Source: Candidatus Mediterraneibacter guildfordensis (lineage in GTDB: Bacteria > Bacillota > Clostridia > Lachnospirales > Lachnospiraceae). From it: DNA of 64,000 bases. The position numbers and the translations under genes are program-made. The notes beneath the pieces were generated by a model. That model searched no databases. It had not been told where the DNA came from and was given only the letters and a program-made list of their open reading frames with translations. How positions within the stretch are numbered: position 1 is the first letter of the stretch; each line of letters starts with the position of its first letter. Location: NCBI GenBank assembly GCA_019112735.1, contig DXIS01000039.1, forward strand, positions 1 to 64,000, read 5' to 3'. This document shows positions 55,851 to 63,785 of the stretch, in pieces.

Positions 55851-55879
55851 TTGCATGTTATTGTGCAACAATGTATAAT
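55851..55879 (+). promoter_or_regulatory. Promoter of the DUF5717-DUF5716-TPR operon
   Basis: TTGCAT, 17 bases, TATAAT: close to consensus. The spacer contains GTGCAA, so TTGCAT..GTGCAA forms a near-palindrome that could be an operator. Confidence 0.75.
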
Positions 55880-55951
55880 TTACAGTAGTGAAATTCTGCC
55901 CTTATATAAATATGTTTCGGGCGGAAGAAGAAATTTGAGTAGGTGACTGAT

Positions 55952-58900
55952 TTGAAGAATAAGATCAAGCGTTTTGCCAAAGGTGATTTTCATATTCCCC
56001 AGCCGGAGATTATTTTTCCGCAGACTCGTATTATCATGCGGGTGGGAGAAGGAGAAAAGTACAGAGGGAGTTTTTCGCTCCAGAACCAGGGGGAAGGGAC
56101 GATCCGGGGAATTGTATATCCCTCTTCATACCGTGTACAGTGTGATGAGCAGGGGTTTGATGCGAATCCGGTCAATATTTATTATACATATGACGGAAGC
56201 GGGCTTGTGCCGGGGCATGTGGAGCACGGGAAGTTTACGATCGTATGCAATGGCGGCGAGTTCGACATTGCTTTTACGGCGATCATAGAGAAGCCCTATG
56301 TCATGACAAGCTACGGTAAAGTGCAGAGCCTGGATGATTTTAAAAAGCTTTCTTTCCGGGATTCGGCCGAGGCTGTGCGGCTGTTCCGGTCACGTGAATT
56401 CTATGAGATCCTGAAATATGAGGACAAGCGGATACAGGCCCTTTATGACAATATGCGCCGCTGGGAGCTGGATCAGCAGGCTCTGGAGGAATTCCTCGTC
56501 GGCTGCAAGCAGAAAGAGAAGATATTCCTGACGCTGGAGGAAGAGAGCAGGGCTTTCATGTCCCTGACAGAACCGCGGAAGGAAACTTTTGCGATCAAAA
56601 AGAACACCTGGGGATACCAGGAGATCGACGTGCGCACAGAGGGGGATTTCCTCTATGTTGAGCATACGCGGATCACGACGGAGGAGTTTATCGGCAATTC
56701 ATACCGTCTTGAATATTTCCTTGACACAGAAAAGCTTCACAGGGGCAGCAATTTCGGACGGGTGATCCTGGAGTCCCCGTATGAGACGCTGACCTATGAG
56801 GTAGTTGTCGAGAAGGATATCGTGCGCGATGAGGACCGGCGGGCGAATGACCGGGAATTCGCGGGTATTGTCAGAAATTATCTGAAATACGAGGGCGGAA
56901 AACTTACGCTTGAAGAGTGGACGGACGAAGCGGTGCGCCGGATCATGCATCTGCGGGACATGGACGGAAGCAATGAGTTCTACCTTCTTGCCCATGCGCA
57001 TATCTGTCTGATCGGCGGACGTACGGACGAGGCGAAAATGCTTCTTGAATCATACAATTACAACCGGTTCGCGATCGGAAAGGATGTGGAGCTCAGCTCC
57101 TATTATCTGTATCTGACGACATTCCTCTCCAGTGATTCAATCGGCCAGCGGAAGGTTGCCGAGGAGCTGTCAAAAACATTTATCAAGAATCCGGACAGCT
57201 GGAAGATCCTCTGCATGCTCGTGGATGTGGATTCGGAGTACAAGATCTACAGTGAGCGGCTCCATGCTCTGGAAAAACAGTTTTATGAAGAGAAATCCCA
57301 CAGCATCTGGTTCTATTTTCAGGCGTTCCGGTGCTACAGGGATAAGAGCTCTTCTCTGAAGAAGCTCGGTGAATTTGAGATCCGCGTTCTTCTTTTTGCG
57401 GTCAGACATAAGCTGATGACCCGGGAACTGGCGCTTTATACGGCCAACCTTGCCAGCCAGATGAAGTCATTTGATAAACATCTGTACAATGTGCTTGTAC
57501 AGTCGTACAACATGTATAATGAATCCATGATCCTGACGTCGATCTGTACGCTCCTTATAAAAGGGAACTGTATGGACAGCCGTTATTTTAAATGGTTCGA
57601 GAAAGCGGTCGAGGAAGAACTTAAGATCGCCCAGCTTTATGAGTATTATATGGGAACCGTGACGCCGTCCGCGTTCCAGAAACCGCTGCCGAGATCTGTA
57701 TACCTGTATTTTATGCACGGCAACAATCTGGATTATCATAAATGTGCGTTTTTATATTCCAATCTGATCACGTACGAGGATGAAGCGAGCGAGATCTATG
57801 CGCATTACAGAGATGAGATGGAAGCATTCGCATGGAACCAGCTGGACCGCCGGAATGTGGATGCGCAGCTTAGGATCATCTATAAGAGGTTTGTGGTAGA
57901 GTCTGCGATGAATCCGGAACGGATTAAAGCGCTTTATGATGTATGCCATGCATACTGGATCACGACCAAGGTGCCGGATATGAAGTTTATCCATGTGATC
58001 GCGGAAGATGGAACGATCACTCAGAAGGCGCCTTATACGGACAACGGGGCAAGAGTGTTCCTTTATGCCAAGACGGACCGTCTCGTATGGGAGGGTAAAG
58101 ACGGCAGACACTACACAGACTCGATCCCGTACGAGAGCAAGCGTCTCTTCTATGAGCTCCGTTACATGGATATGTGCAGGAAATATATCAACGGTCTCAG
58201 AAGGACACGGGAAGAGGAACAGACGCAGGAACTTACGCTTGAGACGGTTCATGAGAAAGGCGTGGAGAACTACGGCGAAGATGAGCTCCTGGGGCTGTGC
58301 AGCCGGACGATCCGTGAAAATAATTATGAGAATGACGATTTCCTTACCTATGTCTGCTTTAAGCTTTTTAAAGACGGACAGTATGATAAGGTGATCCTTA
58401 CATATCTGGCGAATTTCTACTGCGGGGCTACATCAGATATGAAGCTTCTGTGGAGAGAGGCCCGGGATTATGAGGTGCATACGCACAAGCTGGCGGAACG
58501 GATCCTGACCCAGATGCTTTTCTCGGAGGAGATTTTCCAGGAGGCGCAGATTTTTGAGCAGTATTATGCCGAAGGAGCGTATTTCCGCCTGCAGCAGGCG
58601 TATCTGACCTATGTCTCCCGGGAATATGTGGTAGAAGACCGGAAGATCGGGCGCAGCGTCATTGATATTATATGTAAAGAGTATGAAAAGGGCGAGGAGA
58701 CCGGCGATATCTGCAAGATCGCCGTGCTGAAATACTATGCGGACAGAGAGTATGGCGCCCAGACAAGGAAAACACTGAAGAAATTTCTCCAGGAGCTGTG
58801 CGGCAGACAGATTTATTTCCCGTTCTTCCTTTCTTATGAAAAAGAATGGCTGATCGAGCTGCAGCTGTGGGATAAGACGCTGATCGAATACAAAGGTCAG

Positions 58901-59245
58901 AAAGGCAGCAGGGTTATGCTGTATTACCAGCTCCAGAAAGGCGGAGACGAGGGAACGGATTACTCAACGGAGATCCTGACCCCGATGTATGAGAATCTTT
59001 ACGTGAAGAAGTTTGTCCTTTTTGCAAACGAAAGACTCAGATACTATTTTAAAGAAACAATAGACGGCAATTCATATCGCAGCGAGAAGGAAACCTGTGT
59101 GCGGGAAACAGAACATGGCGAACAGGGAAGATATGGACGTCTGAATGATATCCTGACAGAGAGTGACAAGATCGAGCGCCGGAAGAAGATGCAGGCGTAT
59201 GCGCTTGAAGATGCGGTGGCGGCTCATATGTTCGCACAGGAGTAA
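55952..59245 (+). CDS. Large cytoplasmic scaffold protein, DUF5717-type
   Basis: 1097 residues, no signal peptide or membrane helix. I place it in DUF5717 from memory; the function is not known. Reading the sequence: residues ~20-115 look like an Ig-type beta-sandwich (GSFSLQNQGEGTIRGIVY, FDIAFTAIIEKPYV), ~205-290 a second one (YEVVVEKD end), then mostly alpha-helical sequence to ~990 with the alternating pattern of a solenoid repeat, interrupted by a beta insert at ~680-730 (VIAEDGTITQKAPYTDNGA), and a beta-rich C-terminal part. TTG 55952 follows AGGTGA at 5 bases; GTG 55943 is the alternative. First gene of a three-gene operon; next starts 15 bases later. Confidence 0.72.
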   Translation: MKNKIKRFAKGDFHIPQPEIIFPQTRIIMRVGEGEKYRGSFSLQNQGEGTIRGIVYPSSYRVQCDEQGFDANPVNIYYTYDGSGLVPGHVEHGKFTIVCNGGEFDIAFTAIIEKPYVMTSYGKVQSLDDFKKLSFRDSAEAVRLFRSREFYEILKYEDKRIQALYDNMRRWELDQQALEEFLVGCKQKEKIFLTLEEESRAFMSLTEPRKETFAIKKNTWGYQEIDVRTEGDFLYVEHTRITTEEFIGNSYRLEYFLDTEKLHRGSNFGRVILESPYETLTYEVVVEKDIVRDEDRRANDREFAGIVRNYLKYEGGKLTLEEWTDEAVRRIMHLRDMDGSNEFYLLAHAHICLIGGRTDEAKMLLESYNYNRFAIGKDVELSSYYLYLTTFLSSDSIGQRKVAEELSKTFIKNPDSWKILCMLVDVDSEYKIYSERLHALEKQFYEEKSHSIWFYFQAFRCYRDKSSSLKKLGEFEIRVLLFAVRHKLMTRELALYTANLASQMKSFDKHLYNVLVQSYNMYNESMILTSICTLLIKGNCMDSRYFKWFEKAVEEELKIAQLYEYYMGTVTPSAFQKPLPRSVYLYFMHGNNLDYHKCAFLYSNLITYEDEASEIYAHYRDEMEAFAWNQLDRRNVDAQLRIIYKRFVVESAMNPERIKALYDVCHAYWITTKVPDMKFIHVIAEDGTITQKAPYTDNGARVFLYAKTDRLVWEGKDGRHYTDSIPYESKRLFYELRYMDMCRKYINGLRRTREEEQTQELTLETVHEKGVENYGEDELLGLCSRTIRENNYENDDFLTYVCFKLFKDGQYDKVILTYLANFYCGATSDMKLLWREARDYEVHTHKLAERILTQMLFSEEIFQEAQIFEQYYAEGAYFRLQQAYLTYVSREYVVEDRKIGRSVIDIICKEYEKGEETGDICKIAVLKYYADREYGAQTRKTLKKFLQELCGRQIYFPFFLSYEKEWLIELQLWDKTLIEYKGQKGSRVMLYYQLQKGGDEGTDYSTEILTPMYENLYVKKFVLFANERLRYYFKETIDGNSYRSEKETCVRETEHGEQGRYGRLNDILTESDKIERRKKMQAYALEDAVAAHMFAQE

Positions 59246-59260
59246 GGAGGTTGTTTTTTC

Positions 59261-60544
59261 ATGGGACAGGGCAGTATTATAGGCTATGAAATAAATGAAA
59301 AGACATGTCAGATCAGTTTTTATAATGAACAGCAGATGGAGCCGGATACACTGGAGGTGGATGCGGATAACTTCCAGATCCCGCTTATCATCGGGAAACT
59401 GCGCGATACATGGGCGTACGGAAAAGAGGCGAAGCGTCTTGGCTCGATAAAAGAGGGATTTACCGTGACGCGTCTGCTGAGCAAAAGCCTGGCGGGCGAG
59501 CGCATTGAATTCGGGGAGGAGACATATGACGCGGAGTGGCTTCTGTCACAGTTTATCAGGATGTCCCTTCAGTCCTTTCAGGAAATCGACGGCATCGTCT
59601 TTACCGTACCGGTTTTATCAGAGAAACTGGCACAGATGCTCCGCGGGATCGCGGTAGGGATGAATATTGATAAGAGACATATTTTCATCCAGGATTATAA
59701 AGAGAGCTTTTGTAATTACCTGTTTTACCAGCCCAAAGAACTCTGGCAGTATGACGCGGCGCTGTTCTGCTGCGACCGCAATGAGATCAGAGCGTACATG
59801 CTGCGCAGGCTGAAGCCGGGGCTGGGCGGCGGAAAGACGACTTTTGTGACGGTGGATGAAGTGGCGAGCGCGCATATGAAAGAGCTTGCAATGGTCTATC
59901 CGGTCCTCAATGAGGACAAGGCAAAAGAAGCGGATGCCATGTTCAGCAGGTTTATCGAAAGCGTATTTGACAAGAGGATCGTATCTGCGGTATTTCTCAC
60001 CGGTGAAGGATTTGAAAACAACTGGTATCCTAGGTCGCTCCGCGTACTCTGCAACGGCCGGAGGGCCTTTATCGGGAACAATCTGTACAGCAAGGGCGCA
60101 TGCTACACAGCCTACAGAAAGCTGTACATGCATATTGAAAATCCGGTCTATCTTTCCGAGGGCAAGCTGACCGATCAGATCACGGTCAATATGCGGGTGG
60201 ACGGACAGGAGATGTGGTATCCGATCGTGTCGTGGGGGGCGCACTGGTATGAGTCAAACAATCAGTGGGAAGTGCTCTGCGAGGATACGAAAGATATTGA
60301 ACTGCATATCGAATCTCTGATCCAGGGAAATGTCAGGACGGAGAAGATTTCTCTTGCGAATTTCCCAAGACGGTCCGAGTATTCAATGAGACTGCAGCTG
60401 GAGACCCAGTTCCTTGATGAAAAAACATGCAGGATCACGGTCCGCGACGCCGGGTTCGGAGATTTCTTCCCGTCAACAGATTCGCAGGCGGAGAAGACGA
60501 TACATTTAGGAGGAAATGATGGGAAATTTAGTTCTTTGTCATGA
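59261..60544 (+). CDS. Hsp70/actin-fold-like protein lacking phosphate loops, DUF5716-type
   Basis: 427 residues, cytoplasmic. Segments follow an Hsp70 nucleotide-binding domain in order: IGYEINEKT (7-15, phosphate 1 position, but no DxGTT), a PLIIGKLRDTWAYGKEAKR stretch (like the Hsp70 PS.VAF..VG.AK region), IVFTVPVLSEKLAQML (~111, like VTVPAYF), HIFIQDYKESFCNYLF (~148, like the NEPTAAALAY segment), YDAALFCCDRNEI (~163, phosphate 2 position without DLGGGT), VFLTGEGF (~245, like LVGGxxR) and IGNNLYSKGA (~270). A separate C-terminal domain follows to 427. DUF5716 is from memory. So probably an Hsp70 relative that binds nucleotide weakly or not at all. RBS AGGAGG at 10 bases. Confidence 0.7.
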   Translation: MGQGSIIGYEINEKTCQISFYNEQQMEPDTLEVDADNFQIPLIIGKLRDTWAYGKEAKRLGSIKEGFTVTRLLSKSLAGERIEFGEETYDAEWLLSQFIRMSLQSFQEIDGIVFTVPVLSEKLAQMLRGIAVGMNIDKRHIFIQDYKESFCNYLFYQPKELWQYDAALFCCDRNEIRAYMLRRLKPGLGGGKTTFVTVDEVASAHMKELAMVYPVLNEDKAKEADAMFSRFIESVFDKRIVSAVFLTGEGFENNWYPRSLRVLCNGRRAFIGNNLYSKGACYTAYRKLYMHIENPVYLSEGKLTDQITVNMRVDGQEMWYPIVSWGAHWYESNNQWEVLCEDTKDIELHIESLIQGNVRTEKISLANFPRRSEYSMRLQLETQFLDEKTCRITVRDAGFGDFFPSTDSQAEKTIHLGGNDGKFSSLS

Positions 60545-61286
60545 CAGACGCGCAGTACATCCTTTTGAGATCACAAGAATACACTGCCGGATCTATACAA
60601 TTGAAGAATTGTGTTATTACCTCTGCAATAATCTGTACCTGATCGATTATACGATCATGAATGAACAGTTGTGCGGCTGGCTGGAAGAGGAACTGGGGAT
60701 GGACCGCCTTGCTTCAGAACTCCGGGATCTGCTCCGTCTCAGAGGATCGGTGGAGAAATTCGTCATTACGATACTGAAGGCGTCCAGGATCTATAAAGAG
60801 CAGGAAATGATCCGCATCCAGAATGTACTGGAACATCTCAAAAACCAGAAAGATATCGAGCGTCAGAAATATAAAGGCGACAATCTTCTGGAAAGCGGTG
60901 AGGTGGAAGAGGCGATCCTGGTGTATCAGGCCATCCTCAACCAGGAAAAGGATGAATCCGTCGATAATAAATTCTACGGCGGCGTATATGCAGGACTTGG
61001 CGCCGGATACGGCAGGCTGTTCCTCTATCAGGAGGCGGCCCGTATGTATGACCGGGCTTATCAGCTCACCGGCGATAAATCGCTTATAAAACCGTATCTG
61101 TACGCGTCCTATAAATATATGTCCCTTGAGGAATACCATATCCTGATCACCAAGCAGGACGAATATATGGAGATCAATGCCCAGATGCGGCGGGAGATCG
61201 ATGAGATCAAAAAGGAGCTTCCGGATGAGACAGGACCGGAATATCTGGAGAAATGGAAACGCCAGCACCGGAGGAACCACTCCTGA
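60519..61286 (+). CDS. TPR-containing protein, third gene of the operon
   Basis: 255 residues, cytoplasmic. N-terminal ~100 residues unclassified (starts MGNLVLCHDRRAVHPFEITR); residues ~105-190 read as two TPR units (GDNLLESGEVEEAILVYQAIL and YGRLFLYQEAARMYDRAYQL), then a basic helix. TPR domains commonly bind Hsp70 tails or scaffold complexes. ATG 60519 has AGGAGG at 5 bases; its start lies 26 bases inside the preceding gene, so translation is coupled to the DUF5716 protein. No known family recalled for the full protein. Confidence 0.75.
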   Translation: MGNLVLCHDRRAVHPFEITRIHCRIYTIEELCYYLCNNLYLIDYTIMNEQLCGWLEEELGMDRLASELRDLLRLRGSVEKFVITILKASRIYKEQEMIRIQNVLEHLKNQKDIERQKYKGDNLLESGEVEEAILVYQAILNQEKDESVDNKFYGGVYAGLGAGYGRLFLYQEAARMYDRAYQLTGDKSLIKPYLYASYKYMSLEEYHILITKQDEYMEINAQMRREIDEIKKELPDETGPEYLEKWKRQHRRNHS

Positions 61287-61328: not shown

Positions 61329-61378
61329 CCCTCTGTCAGGACCTACGTTGTAAAACTAAGGTTTGACAGGGGGATTTT
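61329..61378 (+). terminator. Terminator of the DUF operon, overlapping the next promoter
   Basis: CCCTCTGTCA pairs with TGACAGGGGG (one G-U), with ACCT/AGGT below the loop, followed by ATTTT. The 3' arm includes the TTGACA of the following promoter. Confidence 0.6.
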
Positions 61379-61391
61379 CATGTGATAGAAT
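61363..61391 (+). promoter_or_regulatory. Promoter of the amino-acid ABC importer
   Basis: TTGACA (61363-61368), exactly 17 bases, TAGAAT (61386-61391); strong sigma-A consensus. Confidence 0.85.
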
Positions 61392-61472
61392 ACAACAGTA
61401 ACTTTACTGTGGTACAGTGACTCATTGGTAAAGAAAAAAAGCGGGCCGGTCAGTCCGGTGATGGAGGTTATT

Positions 61473-62273
61473 ATGAAGAAGAGAGTATTAAGTGTGCTGC
61501 TCTGCACAGCAATGGCAGTTTCTATGCTTGCGGGATGCGGCGGTTCAGACAATGGCGGTGAGAGTGAGAGCGACAAGGCATACGTAGAGGACAAAGGGAC
61601 ACTTGTCGTGGGCATCACGAATTTTGAACCGATGGATTATAAAGATGAGAGCGGCGAGTGGGTCGGCTTTGATGCGGACCTGGCAAAAGCATTTGCGGAA
61701 AGCCTTGGCGTCGAGGCGGAATTCGTTGAGATCGACTGGGACAACAAGATCATGGAACTGGATGGCAAGACCATTGACTGTGTATGGAACGGTATGACGC
61801 TGACAGAAGAAGTGACAAGTTCCATGGACTGTACGGATGCATATCTGACGAATGCACAGGTCGTGGTCGTTCCTTCAGATGTGGCGGACCAGTATCAGGA
61901 TGAAGAGAGCCTTGCGGATCTGAATTTTGCGGCTGAGGCGGGAAGCGCCGGAGAGGCTGAGCTGGAGGCGAGAGAACTGAATGTGACGCCGGTAACGGCT
62001 CAGGCGGACGCCCTGATGGAAGTGGCGGCAGGTACATCTGACGCGGCGGTGATCGACCTTCTGATGGCGGCAGCCATGATCGGTGAGGGGACAAGCTACG
62101 CGGATCTTACATATACGGTACACCTGAACAACGAGGAGTACGGTGTGGGCTTCAGACAGGGTTCGGACCTGACGGCAGCGCTCAATGATTTCTTTGCGGC
62201 ATGCTACGAGGACGGCACCATGCAGGAGATCGCCGAGACCTACGGCGTGCAGGCTGCGCTGATCGCAGAATAG
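61473..62273 (+). CDS. Amino-acid ABC transporter substrate-binding lipoprotein
   Basis: 266 residues. Lipoprotein signal with LAGC lipobox (Cys22), then a type II periplasmic-binding fold: LVVGITNFEPMDYKDESGEWVGFDADLAKAF is its typical opening (seen at ~40-70), IDCVWNGMTLTEE, and a C-terminal lobe ending GTMQEIAETYGV. Cluster 3-type polar amino acid binders have this pattern; the exact amino acid is not clear. ATG 61473 follows ATGGAGG. First of three importer genes. Confidence 0.9.
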   Translation: MKKRVLSVLLCTAMAVSMLAGCGGSDNGGESESDKAYVEDKGTLVVGITNFEPMDYKDESGEWVGFDADLAKAFAESLGVEAEFVEIDWDNKIMELDGKTIDCVWNGMTLTEEVTSSMDCTDAYLTNAQVVVVPSDVADQYQDEESLADLNFAAEAGSAGEAELEARELNVTPVTAQADALMEVAAGTSDAAVIDLLMAAAMIGEGTSYADLTYTVHLNNEEYGVGFRQGSDLTAALNDFFAACYEDGTMQEIAETYGVQAALIAE

Positions 62274-62306
62274 AAAAGACCATAATAAGACGGACGGAGA
62301 TAAGTC

Positions 62307-62987
62307 ATGACATTTTCAGAACAGTTCCCCATTGTTGTGGGGGCGCTGAACACCGGTTTTTTACAGACCTTAAAATTGTTTTTTGTTACGCTTCTGGGGG
62401 CGATCCCGCTGGGCCTGATCATTTCTTTCGGATCCATGTCCCGGTTCAGACCCCTCAGCTATTTTACAAAGATCATCGTGTGGATCATCAGAGGTACGCC
62501 CCTGATGATCCAGCTTTTGATCATTTATTTTATGCCGGGCCTTATGGGACGGAATATCTGGGGCGGCGGCGAGAGCGGAAGATTTCTTGCGGCGGCGGTC
62601 GCATTTATCTTTAACTACTCCTGCTATTTTTCCGAGATCTACAGAGGCGGCATCCAGGGCGTGCCGAAAGGACAGGAAGAGGCGGGCCTGGTGCTGGGTA
62701 TGACGAAGAGCCAGATCTTCTTCAAGATCAAACTGCTCCAGATGATCAAGCGGATTGTTCCGCCCATGTCAAACGAGATCATCACGCTGGTAAAGGATAC
62801 CTCCCTTTCCCGCATCATCGCGCTCCAGGAGATCATCTGGGCGGGCCAGTCTTTCATGAAAGGCAACATGGGGATCGCAGGCGTGATCTGGCCGCTGTTC
62901 TTTACGGCGGTATACTATCTGATCTTTAACGGCATCCTGACCGTCCTTCTGGGGCGTCTGGAGAGAAAACTGGAGTATTTCAGATAG
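62307..62987 (+). CDS. Amino-acid ABC transporter permease
   Basis: 226 residues, five predicted membrane helices, HisM/GlnP-type. The EAA loop is visible as GVPKGQEEAGLVLGMTKSQIF. Also RGTPLMIQLLIIYF, a family hallmark (usually RGTPLLVQ). Forms a homodimer with the ATPase encoded next. RBS ACGGAG is upstream; 33 bases after the binding-protein gene. Confidence 0.93.
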   Translation: MTFSEQFPIVVGALNTGFLQTLKLFFVTLLGAIPLGLIISFGSMSRFRPLSYFTKIIVWIIRGTPLMIQLLIIYFMPGLMGRNIWGGGESGRFLAAAVAFIFNYSCYFSEIYRGGIQGVPKGQEEAGLVLGMTKSQIFFKIKLLQMIKRIVPPMSNEIITLVKDTSLSRIIALQEIIWAGQSFMKGNMGIAGVIWPLFFTAVYYLIFNGILTVLLGRLERKLEYFR

Positions 62988-62999
62988 GAGGACGGCATA

Positions 63000-63785
63000 A
63001 TGGCAATACTGGAAGTACAGCATGTAAGCAAAAGTTTTGGAAATACAGAGGTGCTGAAGGATATCAGCTTCTCACTGGAGAAGGGGAAAGTCCTTTCTCT
63101 GATTGGTTCATCGGGAAGCGGCAAGACTACGCTGCTGCGGTGCCTGAATTTTCTGGAGCAGCCCGACGGCGGTGTGATCCGTGTAAACGGGGAGACGCTT
63201 TTTGATGCGGATGATCCGGGGACGAAGCAGGAGGGCGAGATCCGGAAGAAAAGGCTGCATTTCGGCCTTGTATTTCAGTCATTCAACCTGTTCCCGCAGT
63301 ATACGGCGCTGCAGAATGTAATGCTGGCAAAGGAACTGCTGGAAAAGGAAAAACCGGATTATAAGTCCAGAAAAAAAGAGATCCATGACCAGATCGAACA
63401 GGAGGCGAAACGTCTGCTGGATCAGATGGGGCTTTCAGACCGGATCAATAATTATCCTCATCAGCTCTCGGGCGGGCAGTGTCAGCGTGTGGCCATCGCA
63501 CGGGCGCTGGCGCTGAGTCCGGACATTCTCTGCTTTGATGAGCCTACATCGGCGCTGGACCCGGAACTGACGGGCGAGGTGCTCCGGGTGATCAAGGAAC
63601 TGGCGGATGAGGAGACAACAATGGTGATCGTCACCCATGAGATGGCGTTCGCCCGGGATGTTTCCAGCCAGGTCATCTTCATGGACGACGGACGGATCCT
63701 GGAGAGCGGCACGCCGGAGGATGTGTTCGGGCATCCGAAGGAGGAGCGTACCAGACAGTTTCTGTCCCGGTATACAAACGGATAG
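63000..63785 (+). CDS. Amino-acid ABC transporter ATP-binding protein
   Basis: 261 residues. Walker [22 protein letters not shown]-loop [10 protein letters not shown], signature [17 protein letters not shown], Walker [15 protein letters not shown] and the switch His region [12 protein letters not shown] match the HisP/GlnQ family. A short insert ([21 protein letters not shown]) precedes the signature. ATG 63000 follows AGGAGG at 8 bases. Completes the importer operon. Confidence 0.94.

Follow-up and report, generated by a model that had tools for sequence, protein, structure and literature searches.

The locus at positions 55952 to 61286 raises the question of what is achieved by an operon whose two main genes belong to protein families without an assigned function. 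It lies in a stretch of 64,000 nucleotides from Candidatus Mediterraneibacter guildfordensis (contig DXIS01000039.1), the whole of which is referred to as the window. This organism is a member of the Lachnospiraceae, a family that ranks among the most abundant bacteria of the human gut. The initial annotation had named the families DUF5717 and DUF5716, and both were confirmed by Pfam matches above the gathering cut-offs (gene 1: DUF5717, PF18984 with 705 bits and PF18983 with 345 bits; gene 2: DUF5716_C, PF18980 with 342 bits). Both families are merely catalogued in Pfam. In agreement with the earlier statement that they have no assigned function, the literature searched contained no functional paper on DUF5716 or DUF5717, the single text match being unrelated. 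Searches for Lachnospiraceae essential genes or signature proteins gave nothing relevant among the papers listed, those for degenerate bacterial Hsp70s found no paper, and no bacterial description of an Hsp70-in-scaffold complex of this kind was found.

Layout and conservation of the operon

The genes for DUF5717, DUF5716 and a tetratricopeptide repeat (TPR) protein form a real three-gene operon in the window and represent one conserved unit. Their tight packing was confirmed, with a 15-base gap between genes 1 and 2 and an overlap of genes 2 and 3 of 26 bases, or 29 bases including the gene 2 stop codon. The following features were distinguished:

55851..55879, + strand: promoter TTGCAT-17-TATAAT, read by eye; perfect -10, weak -35 (3/6)
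55952..59245, + strand: gene 1, DUF5717 scaffold-like protein, TTG start, 1097 aa (Pfam PF18984 and PF18983)
56027..56323, + strand: gene 1 beta-sandwich 1, residues 26-124 (AlphaFold2 model, Foldseek)
56528..56815, + strand: gene 1 beta-sandwich 2, residues 193-288 (AlphaFold2 model)
56828..57946, + strand: gene 1 alpha-solenoid 1, residues 293-665 (model; solenoid-type Foldseek matches with low TM-scores)
57950..58144, + strand: gene 1 beta domain 3, residues 667-731 (AlphaFold2 model)
58157..58858, + strand: gene 1 alpha-solenoid 2, residues 736-969 (AlphaFold2 model)
58874..59101, + strand: gene 1 beta domain 4, residues 975-1050 (AlphaFold2 model)
59261..60544, + strand: gene 2, DUF5716 pseudo-Hsp70, 427 aa (Pfam, profile, fold, motif survey)
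59270..60130, + strand: gene 2 degenerate Hsp70-like nucleotide-binding domain with shortened lobe II (motif survey, model)
60173..60505, + strand: gene 2 SBD-beta-like beta-sandwich, residues 305-415, no lid (profile, motif survey, model)
60516..61286, + strand: gene 3, TPR protein, 256 aa, overlapping gene 2 (orthologue profile)
61329..61373, + strand: hairpin after gene 3, z -5.6 (folds well); doubtful terminator overlapping the next promoter

The promoter had been described as near-consensus, which holds for its -10 box but not for its -35 box, and the element at 55851-55879 was not listed by a consensus promoter scan. However, it looks genuine, because the window and 22 of 23 compared relatives, namely those of loci L043-L070 carrying the KNKIKRF start motif, have TATAAT 5' of gene 1. 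The terminator proposed after gene 3 fared worse and is doubtful, since two of the five displayed relatives (L044 and L046) have no 5' arm of the hairpin, whose 3' arm contains a conserved -35 box belonging to the promoter of the ABC transporter downstream; furthermore, the terminator scan listed no + strand terminator at 61329-61373.

Adjacency of the three genes across genomes, proposed earlier as a check, was clearly retained. The order gene 1-gene 2-gene 3 was kept in all 16 genomes compared, the window included, as well as in 78 of the 80 named loci; the remaining two are truncated by the locus ends. In 77 of the 78 complete loci, the genes lie on the same strand within 300 bases, while the remaining one, L086, has its gene 1 spread over two reading frames that overlap. 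Where it was measurable, in 78/78 loci, the overlap of genes 2 and 3 amounts to 26 bases, or 29 with the stop codon included. Genes 1 and 2 were adjacent in 93 of 95 genomes, among the matches listed with both positions; adjacency counts given here cover the genomes present in both match listings, and two of the misses, G399 and G427, were opened. In G427, gene 1 resides on another contig, and genes 2 and 3 stay together with a fourth gene described below. Order and adjacency are retained although the proteins across these genera are only 20-33% identical to those of the window. After these genes, the most frequent neighbour cluster is an ABC-transporter ATPase, present in 11 of the 16 loci at varying position. 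Labelled by eye, the neighbouring genes read as housekeeping or transport genes, and no functional hint was obtained from them.

Genes 1 and 2 were each detected in 274 of 280 sampled Lachnospiraceae genera, with both present in 271, one alone in six and neither in three. In two wider samples, covering the class and the phylum, genes 1 and 2 exceeded the cut-off in no other family, gene 2 matches above the Pfam cut-off (16/391 class-wide, 4/299 phylum-wide) being confined to Lachnospiraceae, and neither gene was matched in 14 control genomes. Weak out-of-family matches in G116 and G318 were dismissed, as they lie below the cut-offs and phmmer searches of both loci with the window's proteins 1-3 detected no relative. 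With this distribution, the module, which is mostly single-copy, probably serves a process that matters to nearly all Lachnospiraceae, yet no functional study was found. Between-protein distance correlations were high (Pearson 0.95-0.98), as vertically inherited genes would show anyway.

Domain architecture of the three proteins

The Hsp70-like segment order proposed for gene 2 was borne out by three approaches. As in DnaK, a nucleotide-binding domain is followed collinearly by a substrate-binding beta-sandwich (SBD-beta) in profile, alignment and predicted fold. The gene 2 profile matched part of the nucleotide-binding domain and part of the SBD-beta of DnaK (whole-sequence E 2.6e-4), and hhalign aligned the first lobe with the two Hsp70s of the window's genome (E 2e-5, probability 76%), which are a normal DnaK adjoined by an apparent DnaJ and a second Hsp70. 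The predicted structure, of low confidence in lobe II (about residues 160-270), retrieved DnaK (E 9e-15) and Ssz1 (E 9e-14) in Foldseek, with moderate TM-scores to Hsp70s of at most 0.48 in the best 50 rows.

Gene 2 differs from DnaK and other Hsp70s in its catalytic motifs, its lid, its lobe II and its detectability by Pfam, since HSP70 (PF00012) gave no match at E up to 1, a search in which HMMER filters drop most weak matches. None of five catalytic motifs (phosphate-1 GTT/TT, K70, the NEP glutamate, GGGT and GGD) is kept in any of the 16 members surveyed, the window included. All 16 end 16-27 residues past the SBD-beta motif, compared to 162 and 115 residues in the genome's two ordinary Hsp70s, and are thus lidless. 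Between the phosphate-2 and adenosine motifs, the 16 members have 59-77 residues versus 142 in both ordinary Hsp70s, the missing part presumably being subdomain IIB. Since ATPase motifs and lid are lost, gene 2 would not be expected to run the Hsp70 cycle; nevertheless, nucleotide binding is conceivable outside the window's clade, because D8 is retained in 15/16 members and the phosphate-2 Asp in 12/16.

Gene 1 was previously considered cytoplasmic, and hydropathy analysis supported this by detecting no membrane segment in the window protein, so that a secreted or membrane protein was rejected. One marginal hydrophobic stretch each was seen in 2 of 15 aligned gene 1 proteins, as well as in 1/16 gene 2 and 1/16 gene 3 proteins. 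In the AlphaFold2 model (mean pLDDT 82, pTM 0.43, the latter being low and leaving the domain arrangement uncertain), beta-sandwich domains alternate with alpha-solenoids. Accordingly, four beta domains replace the two beta-sandwiches predicted earlier, and the long helical repeat is retained as helical solenoids, but divided into two that alternate with the beta domains. Compared to 13 other full-length homologues aligned, alpha-solenoid 2 of the window lacks about 100 aa close to its beginning, and PF18984 positions 772-875 are unmatched in the window's gene 1. The first two beta-sandwiches appear dispensable in G279, because its gene 1 is without the first ~295 residues.

No sequence relative of known structure was found for gene 1 at E below 0.68. 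The top 13 Foldseek matches were chains of ciliary central-apparatus entries, with E about 1e-5 and TM-scores of 0.07-0.10 on the query, the aligned ranges not being reported; in the best 50 rows, TM-scores reached at most 0.16 on the query and 0.35 on the target. Beta-sandwich 1 is perhaps an ASH/Ig-like domain, judging from its modelled fold. Like eukaryotic ASH/MSP and TPR-solenoid proteins of the ciliary central apparatus and of TRAPPII, gene 1 in its model joins seemingly Ig-like sandwiches to an alpha-solenoid, a TPR-ASH arrangement being described in PMC4094338. However, the domain order is different and the TM-scores are low, and the modelled likeness should be treated as convergent unless shown otherwise.

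Gene 3 is, on its orthologue profile, a TPR protein, as had been proposed: the profile of 16 orthologues matched engineered consensus TPR structures in the PDB with E 6e-14, and TPR matches of the single sequence were all below Pfam cut-offs. At what we take to be the dicarboxylate clamp positions of HOP/CHIP-type TPRs, a clamp-like Asn is present in 15/16 members and replaced by Gly in the window, other clamp-like positions vary, and none of the gene 2 C-terminal tails ends in EEVD.

A frequent fourth gene for a predicted membrane protein

The three-gene composition stood, but a frequent fourth gene, encoding a protein with two predicted membrane segments, had been missed. Gene 4 lies directly 3' of gene 3 in 12/16 genomes and was matched in 126 of 280 Lachnospiraceae genera (~45%), two of these matches (G432 and G640) spanning fewer than 70 model positions, with no match in the other 154. 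Genes 2 and 4 were adjacent in 65/66 genomes, among the matches listed. No gene 4 was detected in the genome of the window, nor any match to it in the 80 named loci, 75 of which extend at least 1,500 bases past gene 3. A simple hydropathy window gave two hydrophobic segments for 10 of 12 gene 4 proteins, and two plus an overlapping call for the other two. The proteins look like two long arms joined by a membrane hairpin, with a coiled-coil appearance by eye, and no Pfam family exceeded the cut-off in the members scanned.

Gene 4 is absent in at least three places on a midpoint-rooted 16-tip tree, which is weakly supported (0.22) at the window/L034 node and alone does not tell loss from gain. 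Apparent gene 4 fusions in G627 and G637 were rejected, the long frames having charged N-terminal extensions, disordered-looking by eye and without a fused partner (Pfam: no match and one sub-threshold match, respectively). A link between the ~100 aa loss in gene 1 and gene 4 absence was also dropped, as L034 and L035 have no gene 4 yet a full-length gene 1.

Candidate roles of the module

It is somewhat probable (roughly 0.55) that the operon is a core Lachnospiraceae module encoding a stable, ATP-independent, non-catalytic scaffold or holding complex, which is attached to the membrane in those genera that have gene 4; of this, complex formation, peptide binding and membrane anchoring are what we infer here. 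Gene 1 would represent the backbone, its beta-sandwich domains and TPR-like solenoids giving long docking surfaces. Gene 2 would most likely be a fixed subunit, whose beta-sandwich may bind a strand or peptide of gene 1 or of a client without ATP, in an Ssz1-like manner. Gene 3 would act as a TPR adaptor produced in step with gene 2, and gene 4 may anchor the complex at the membrane via its hairpin. Since the window's lineage seems to lack gene 4, the cytosolic core can presumably do without it.

The nearest known parallel to gene 2 is Ssz1 of the yeast/fungal ribosome-associated complex (RAC), likewise a lidless protein of Hsp70 fold. According to PMC7083937, Ssz1 does not hydrolyse ATP, has no lid and is stably incorporated into a larger assembly. 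However, Ssz1 is capable of ATP binding and has a J-protein as its partner at the ribosome, whereas gene 2 has additionally lost the phosphate loops and much of lobe II, and the Pfam matches, at E up to 1, of the window's three proteins and three gene 4 proteins included no J-domain family. Tentatively, the module might even be a family-defining organising complex, in which an ATPase-dead Hsp70 sits permanently in a beta-sandwich/TPR scaffold with an optional membrane tether, corresponding in bacteria to RAC- or TRAPP-like assemblies. If confirmed, the complex would be a clear example from bacteria of an Hsp70 repurposed as a non-catalytic subunit of a scaffold, and would offer a candidate Lachnospiraceae-specific marker or target.

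Several other explanations were weighed. Gene 2 could pass low-affinity nascent or membrane-bound chains to ordinary DnaK, with genes 1 and 3 as platform. Such a RAC-like holding chaperone would suit the lidless Hsp70 fold without ATPase motifs, the DnaK with its apparent DnaJ and the second Hsp70 in the genome, and gene 4 could put it at the membrane; it is nonetheless rather unlikely considering the missing J-domain family, the lack of an identified ribosome-binding element (none was specifically sought) and a one-family restriction that is odd for a general folding factor. Equally improbable is a cell-envelope or division scaffold, with gene 4 as membrane anchor of a complex organising wall or division enzymes: the hairpin between two long arms and the core-genome distribution of genes 1 and 2 fit, but gene 4 is unmatched in most genera, is repeatedly absent on the tree, and the neighbours read by eye as housekeeping or transport genes. 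The Hsp70-type system suggested at first, if taken as an active ATP-driven machine, is very improbable, as its Hsp70 fold and TPR partner are outweighed by the loss of catalytic motifs and lid, the shortened lobe II and the missing Pfam HSP70 match.

The genes might instead be co-transcribed but function separately, without forming a complex, which would agree with the parting of gene 1 from genes 2-3-4 in G427. This explanation is quite unlikely in view of the order and adjacency kept despite strong sequence divergence, the ABC-transporter ATPase showing no comparable constancy of position. A defence system or mobile element, finally, was rejected and is hardly credible: genes 1 and 2 are spread over nearly all genera sampled, no plasmid match was found, and PADLOC gave a weak TniQ match for gene 2 (18 bits) and nothing else. 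Four phage-labelled records do match gene 1, but the two that were opened are unannotated 'UNVERIFIED' faecal scaffolds, in which the operon lies beside apparent bacterial housekeeping genes.

Operon layout and flanking signals

As described in the initial annotation, three closely packed genes were found on the plus strand of the window, and the family names given there agreed with the Pfam assignments of genes 1 and 2. The region comprises the following features:

55952-59245, plus strand: gene 1, DUF5717 by Pfam
59261-60544, plus strand: gene 2, DUF5716 by Pfam
60516-61286, plus strand: gene 3, Pfam TPR matches, all sub-threshold
61329-61391: hairpin and -35 box of the downstream promoter (TTGACA-17-TAGAAT)
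61425-63785: downstream cassette, reading as an amino-acid ABC transporter

Upstream of gene 1, a promoter of the form TTGCAT-17-TATAAT is readable. The window was aligned with 23 relatives, i.e., those of loci L043-L070 featuring a recognizable gene 1 start, and TATAAT was present in the window and in 22 of the 23, the aligned -10 box being conserved. A consensus promoter scan of the window did not include TTGCAT-17-TATAAT among its calls. The longest gene 1 frame opens at GTG 55943 (site 55943-55957). TTG 55952 is the likelier start, since it is common to the aligned relatives and a one-base insertion column separates it from GTG 55943. The hairpin after gene 3, previously regarded as a terminator, forms a stable fold (z -5.6); however, this role is doubtful, because, of the five relatives displayed, L044 and L046 are without the 5' arm, and the 3' arm corresponds to the conserved -35 element of the promoter preceding the downstream ABC transporter.

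Linkage and distribution within the Lachnospiraceae

The gene order 1-2-3 was identical in all 16 genomes compared, including that of the window. Among named organisms, 580 stretches encoding gene 2 relatives were detected, and the best 80 were retained as named loci; 78 of these featured the same order, the remaining two being cut at the locus ends. Genes 1 and 2 were neighbors on one strand in 93 out of 95 genomes listed in both match tables. Non-adjacency in genome G399 was due to a contig break. Genome G427, encoding gene 1 alone on one contig (L137) and genes 2-3-4 followed by an apparent valS on another (L138), was the sole separation among the listed pairs lacking a contig-end explanation. 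Beyond these genes, no neighbor was invariant; an ABC-transporter ATPase cluster ranked next in frequency, occurring in 11 of the 16 loci and at variable positions. In [Ruminococcus] faecis JCM 15917, gene 1 is read as overlapping frames of 630 and 475 aa (L086:5708-8985), which may reflect either a frameshift or an assembly error, and a short gene 3 encodes 190 aa.

The nearest named relatives of gene 2 belong to Mediterraneibacter, a member of the Lachnospiraceae. Across 391 genomes sampled from the class, DUF5717 and DUF5716 exceeded the cut-off in the identical 16 genomes, all of this family, and each matched one further genome of another family weakly, below the cut-off. No Lachnospiraceae genome appeared among the non-matching class-wide genomes listed, which run from 'same order' on and leave 354 others outside. 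In the phylum-wide sample, DUF5716 was detected in 4 out of 299 genomes, all of the same family, and 14 named control genomes gave no match in searches for either domain. Within the family, represented by 280 genera with one genome each, DUF5716 and DUF5717 were each found in 274 genera and together in 271; six genomes carried only one, and three neither (G417, G478, and G608). Among the genomes with only one domain, five have a completeness of 67-77%; the remaining one, G485, reaches 99%, yet consists of 170 contigs, and its gene 1 match is split into two pieces. In most of the 280 genomes, gene 2 was matched once, with two matches in five of those listed.

Being almost universal in this family, restricted to it, and mostly present in single copy, the operon is more likely to serve a core process than to act in defence. 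Regarding mobile elements, no plasmid matched, and four phage-labelled records did. Two of these, deposited as 'UNVERIFIED: Bacteriophage sp.', encode all four genes (L145, MT835486.1; gene 4 is described below) or genes 1-3 and part of gene 4 (L146, MT835988.1) beside apparent bacterial genes, and look like mislabelled bacterial chromosome fragments.

Gene 2 as a descendant of Hsp70 and the architecture of genes 1 and 3

The Hsp70-like character noted for gene 2 was recovered by several comparisons. A profile of 16 orthologues matched DnaK in the PDB (E 2.6e-4), with aligned segments within the first lobe and at the end of the substrate-binding beta-sandwich, and profile comparison with the two Hsp70s of the genome itself (an ordinary DnaK beside an apparent DnaJ, and a second Hsp70) aligned the first lobe (E 2e-5, probability 76%). 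The AlphaFold2 model (pLDDT 70.5, pTM 0.69; residues ~160-270 of low confidence) matched DnaK (E 9e-15, query TM-score 0.48) and yeast Ssz1 (E 9e-14, query TM-score 0.42). In the alignment with the genome's Hsp70s, the phosphate-1 TT, K70, the NEP glutamate, GGGT, and GGD were kept by none of the 16 members. The first Asp is conserved in 15 of 16 (Glu in the window) and the phosphate-2 Asp in 12, and the distance from phosphate-2 to the adenosine motif is 59-77 residues compared to 142 in the two Hsp70s of the genome. Furthermore, the helical lid is missing. Given these matches and losses, gene 2 encodes an Hsp70 descendant that should not hydrolyze ATP; it may still bind nucleotide. In G500, the nucleotide-binding domain of gene 2 (L143:895-2454) is interrupted by an Ala/Glu/Gly-rich insertion of ~112 residues, which includes repeated segments.

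For gene 1, the model (pLDDT 82, pTM 0.43) is credible in its domains, but not in their arrangement. The modelled order is sandwich, helices, sandwich, solenoid, beta domain, solenoid, sandwich, and C-terminal helices; the model thus has four beta domains and two solenoids, where the earlier description had two beta-sandwiches and a long helical repeat. No sequence relative of known structure was detected (single match at E 0.68). The top 13 Foldseek hits were chains of ciliary central-apparatus entries, followed by chains of Paf1, Ski, Nat, and other complexes, all with low TM-scores. As the Foldseek output gave hits without aligned ranges or chain names, the N-terminal sandwiches are read only tentatively as ASH/Ig-like and the solenoids as TPR-like. 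TRAPPII subunits are described in PMC4094338 as combining TPR and ASH parts. Gene 1 of G279 (L040:7887-10448), located directly behind an apparent metK gene, lacks the first ~295 residues and hence both N-terminal sandwiches. Gene 3 was supported as a TPR protein by its profile.

A putative complex and a fourth gene

The best reading, by analogy, is that the products of genes 1-3 would form a stable, ATP-independent scaffold or holding complex. According to PMC7083937, Ssz1, a subunit of the ribosome-associated complex, can neither hydrolyze ATP nor possesses a lid, and its partner Zuo1 holds it in place, with a portion of Zuo1 filling the Ssz1 binding groove. The gene 2 product is likewise lidless and expected to lack hydrolysis, and we propose that part of the gene 1 or gene 3 product might take the role of Zuo1 by occupying its groove. 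The parts of the operon are recognizable; the assembly as a whole appears to be undescribed. No functional paper on DUF5717 or DUF5716 was found in the library searched, which covers few subscription-journal papers and no preprints, and the sole text match was an unrelated motif search assigning DUF5716 to part of MAX.

Directly after gene 3, 12 of the 16 genomes encode a further protein of 390-504 aa (gene 4), for example:

L026:6210-7400, minus strand: gene 4, with equivalents in 11 other genomes

No Pfam family scored above the cut-off in the three members first scanned or in two others. A hydropathy window predicted two membrane segments in 10 of the 12 members, flanked by long arms and joined by a loop of 7-13 residues, and added an overlapping third segment in L032 and L038. 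The loops contain 1-2 basic residues and the flanks 2-6; because the N-terminal flank contains more acidic than basic residues in five of the 12, a cytoplasmic location of the arms is only weakly suggested. Where present, the gene 4 protein would anchor the complex to the membrane.

Gene 4 matches were obtained in 126 of the 280 genera (98 of 226 high-quality genomes), adjoining gene 2 in 65 out of the 66 genomes that both tables list, and lying downstream of gene 1 at the expected distance in 86 out of 93 listed. It was not found in the genome of the window (90% complete), nor in any of the 80 loci from the window's clade, of which 75 extend for at least 1,500 bases past gene 3. The order g1-g2-g3-g4-ABC transporter in G113, compared to g1-g2-g3-ABC transporter in the window, suggests loss of gene 4 in the lineage of the latter. 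On the 16-tip tree, genomes without gene 4 are found in at least three separate parts. In some gene 4 proteins, the N-terminus is extended by a long charged stretch (L135 and L136).
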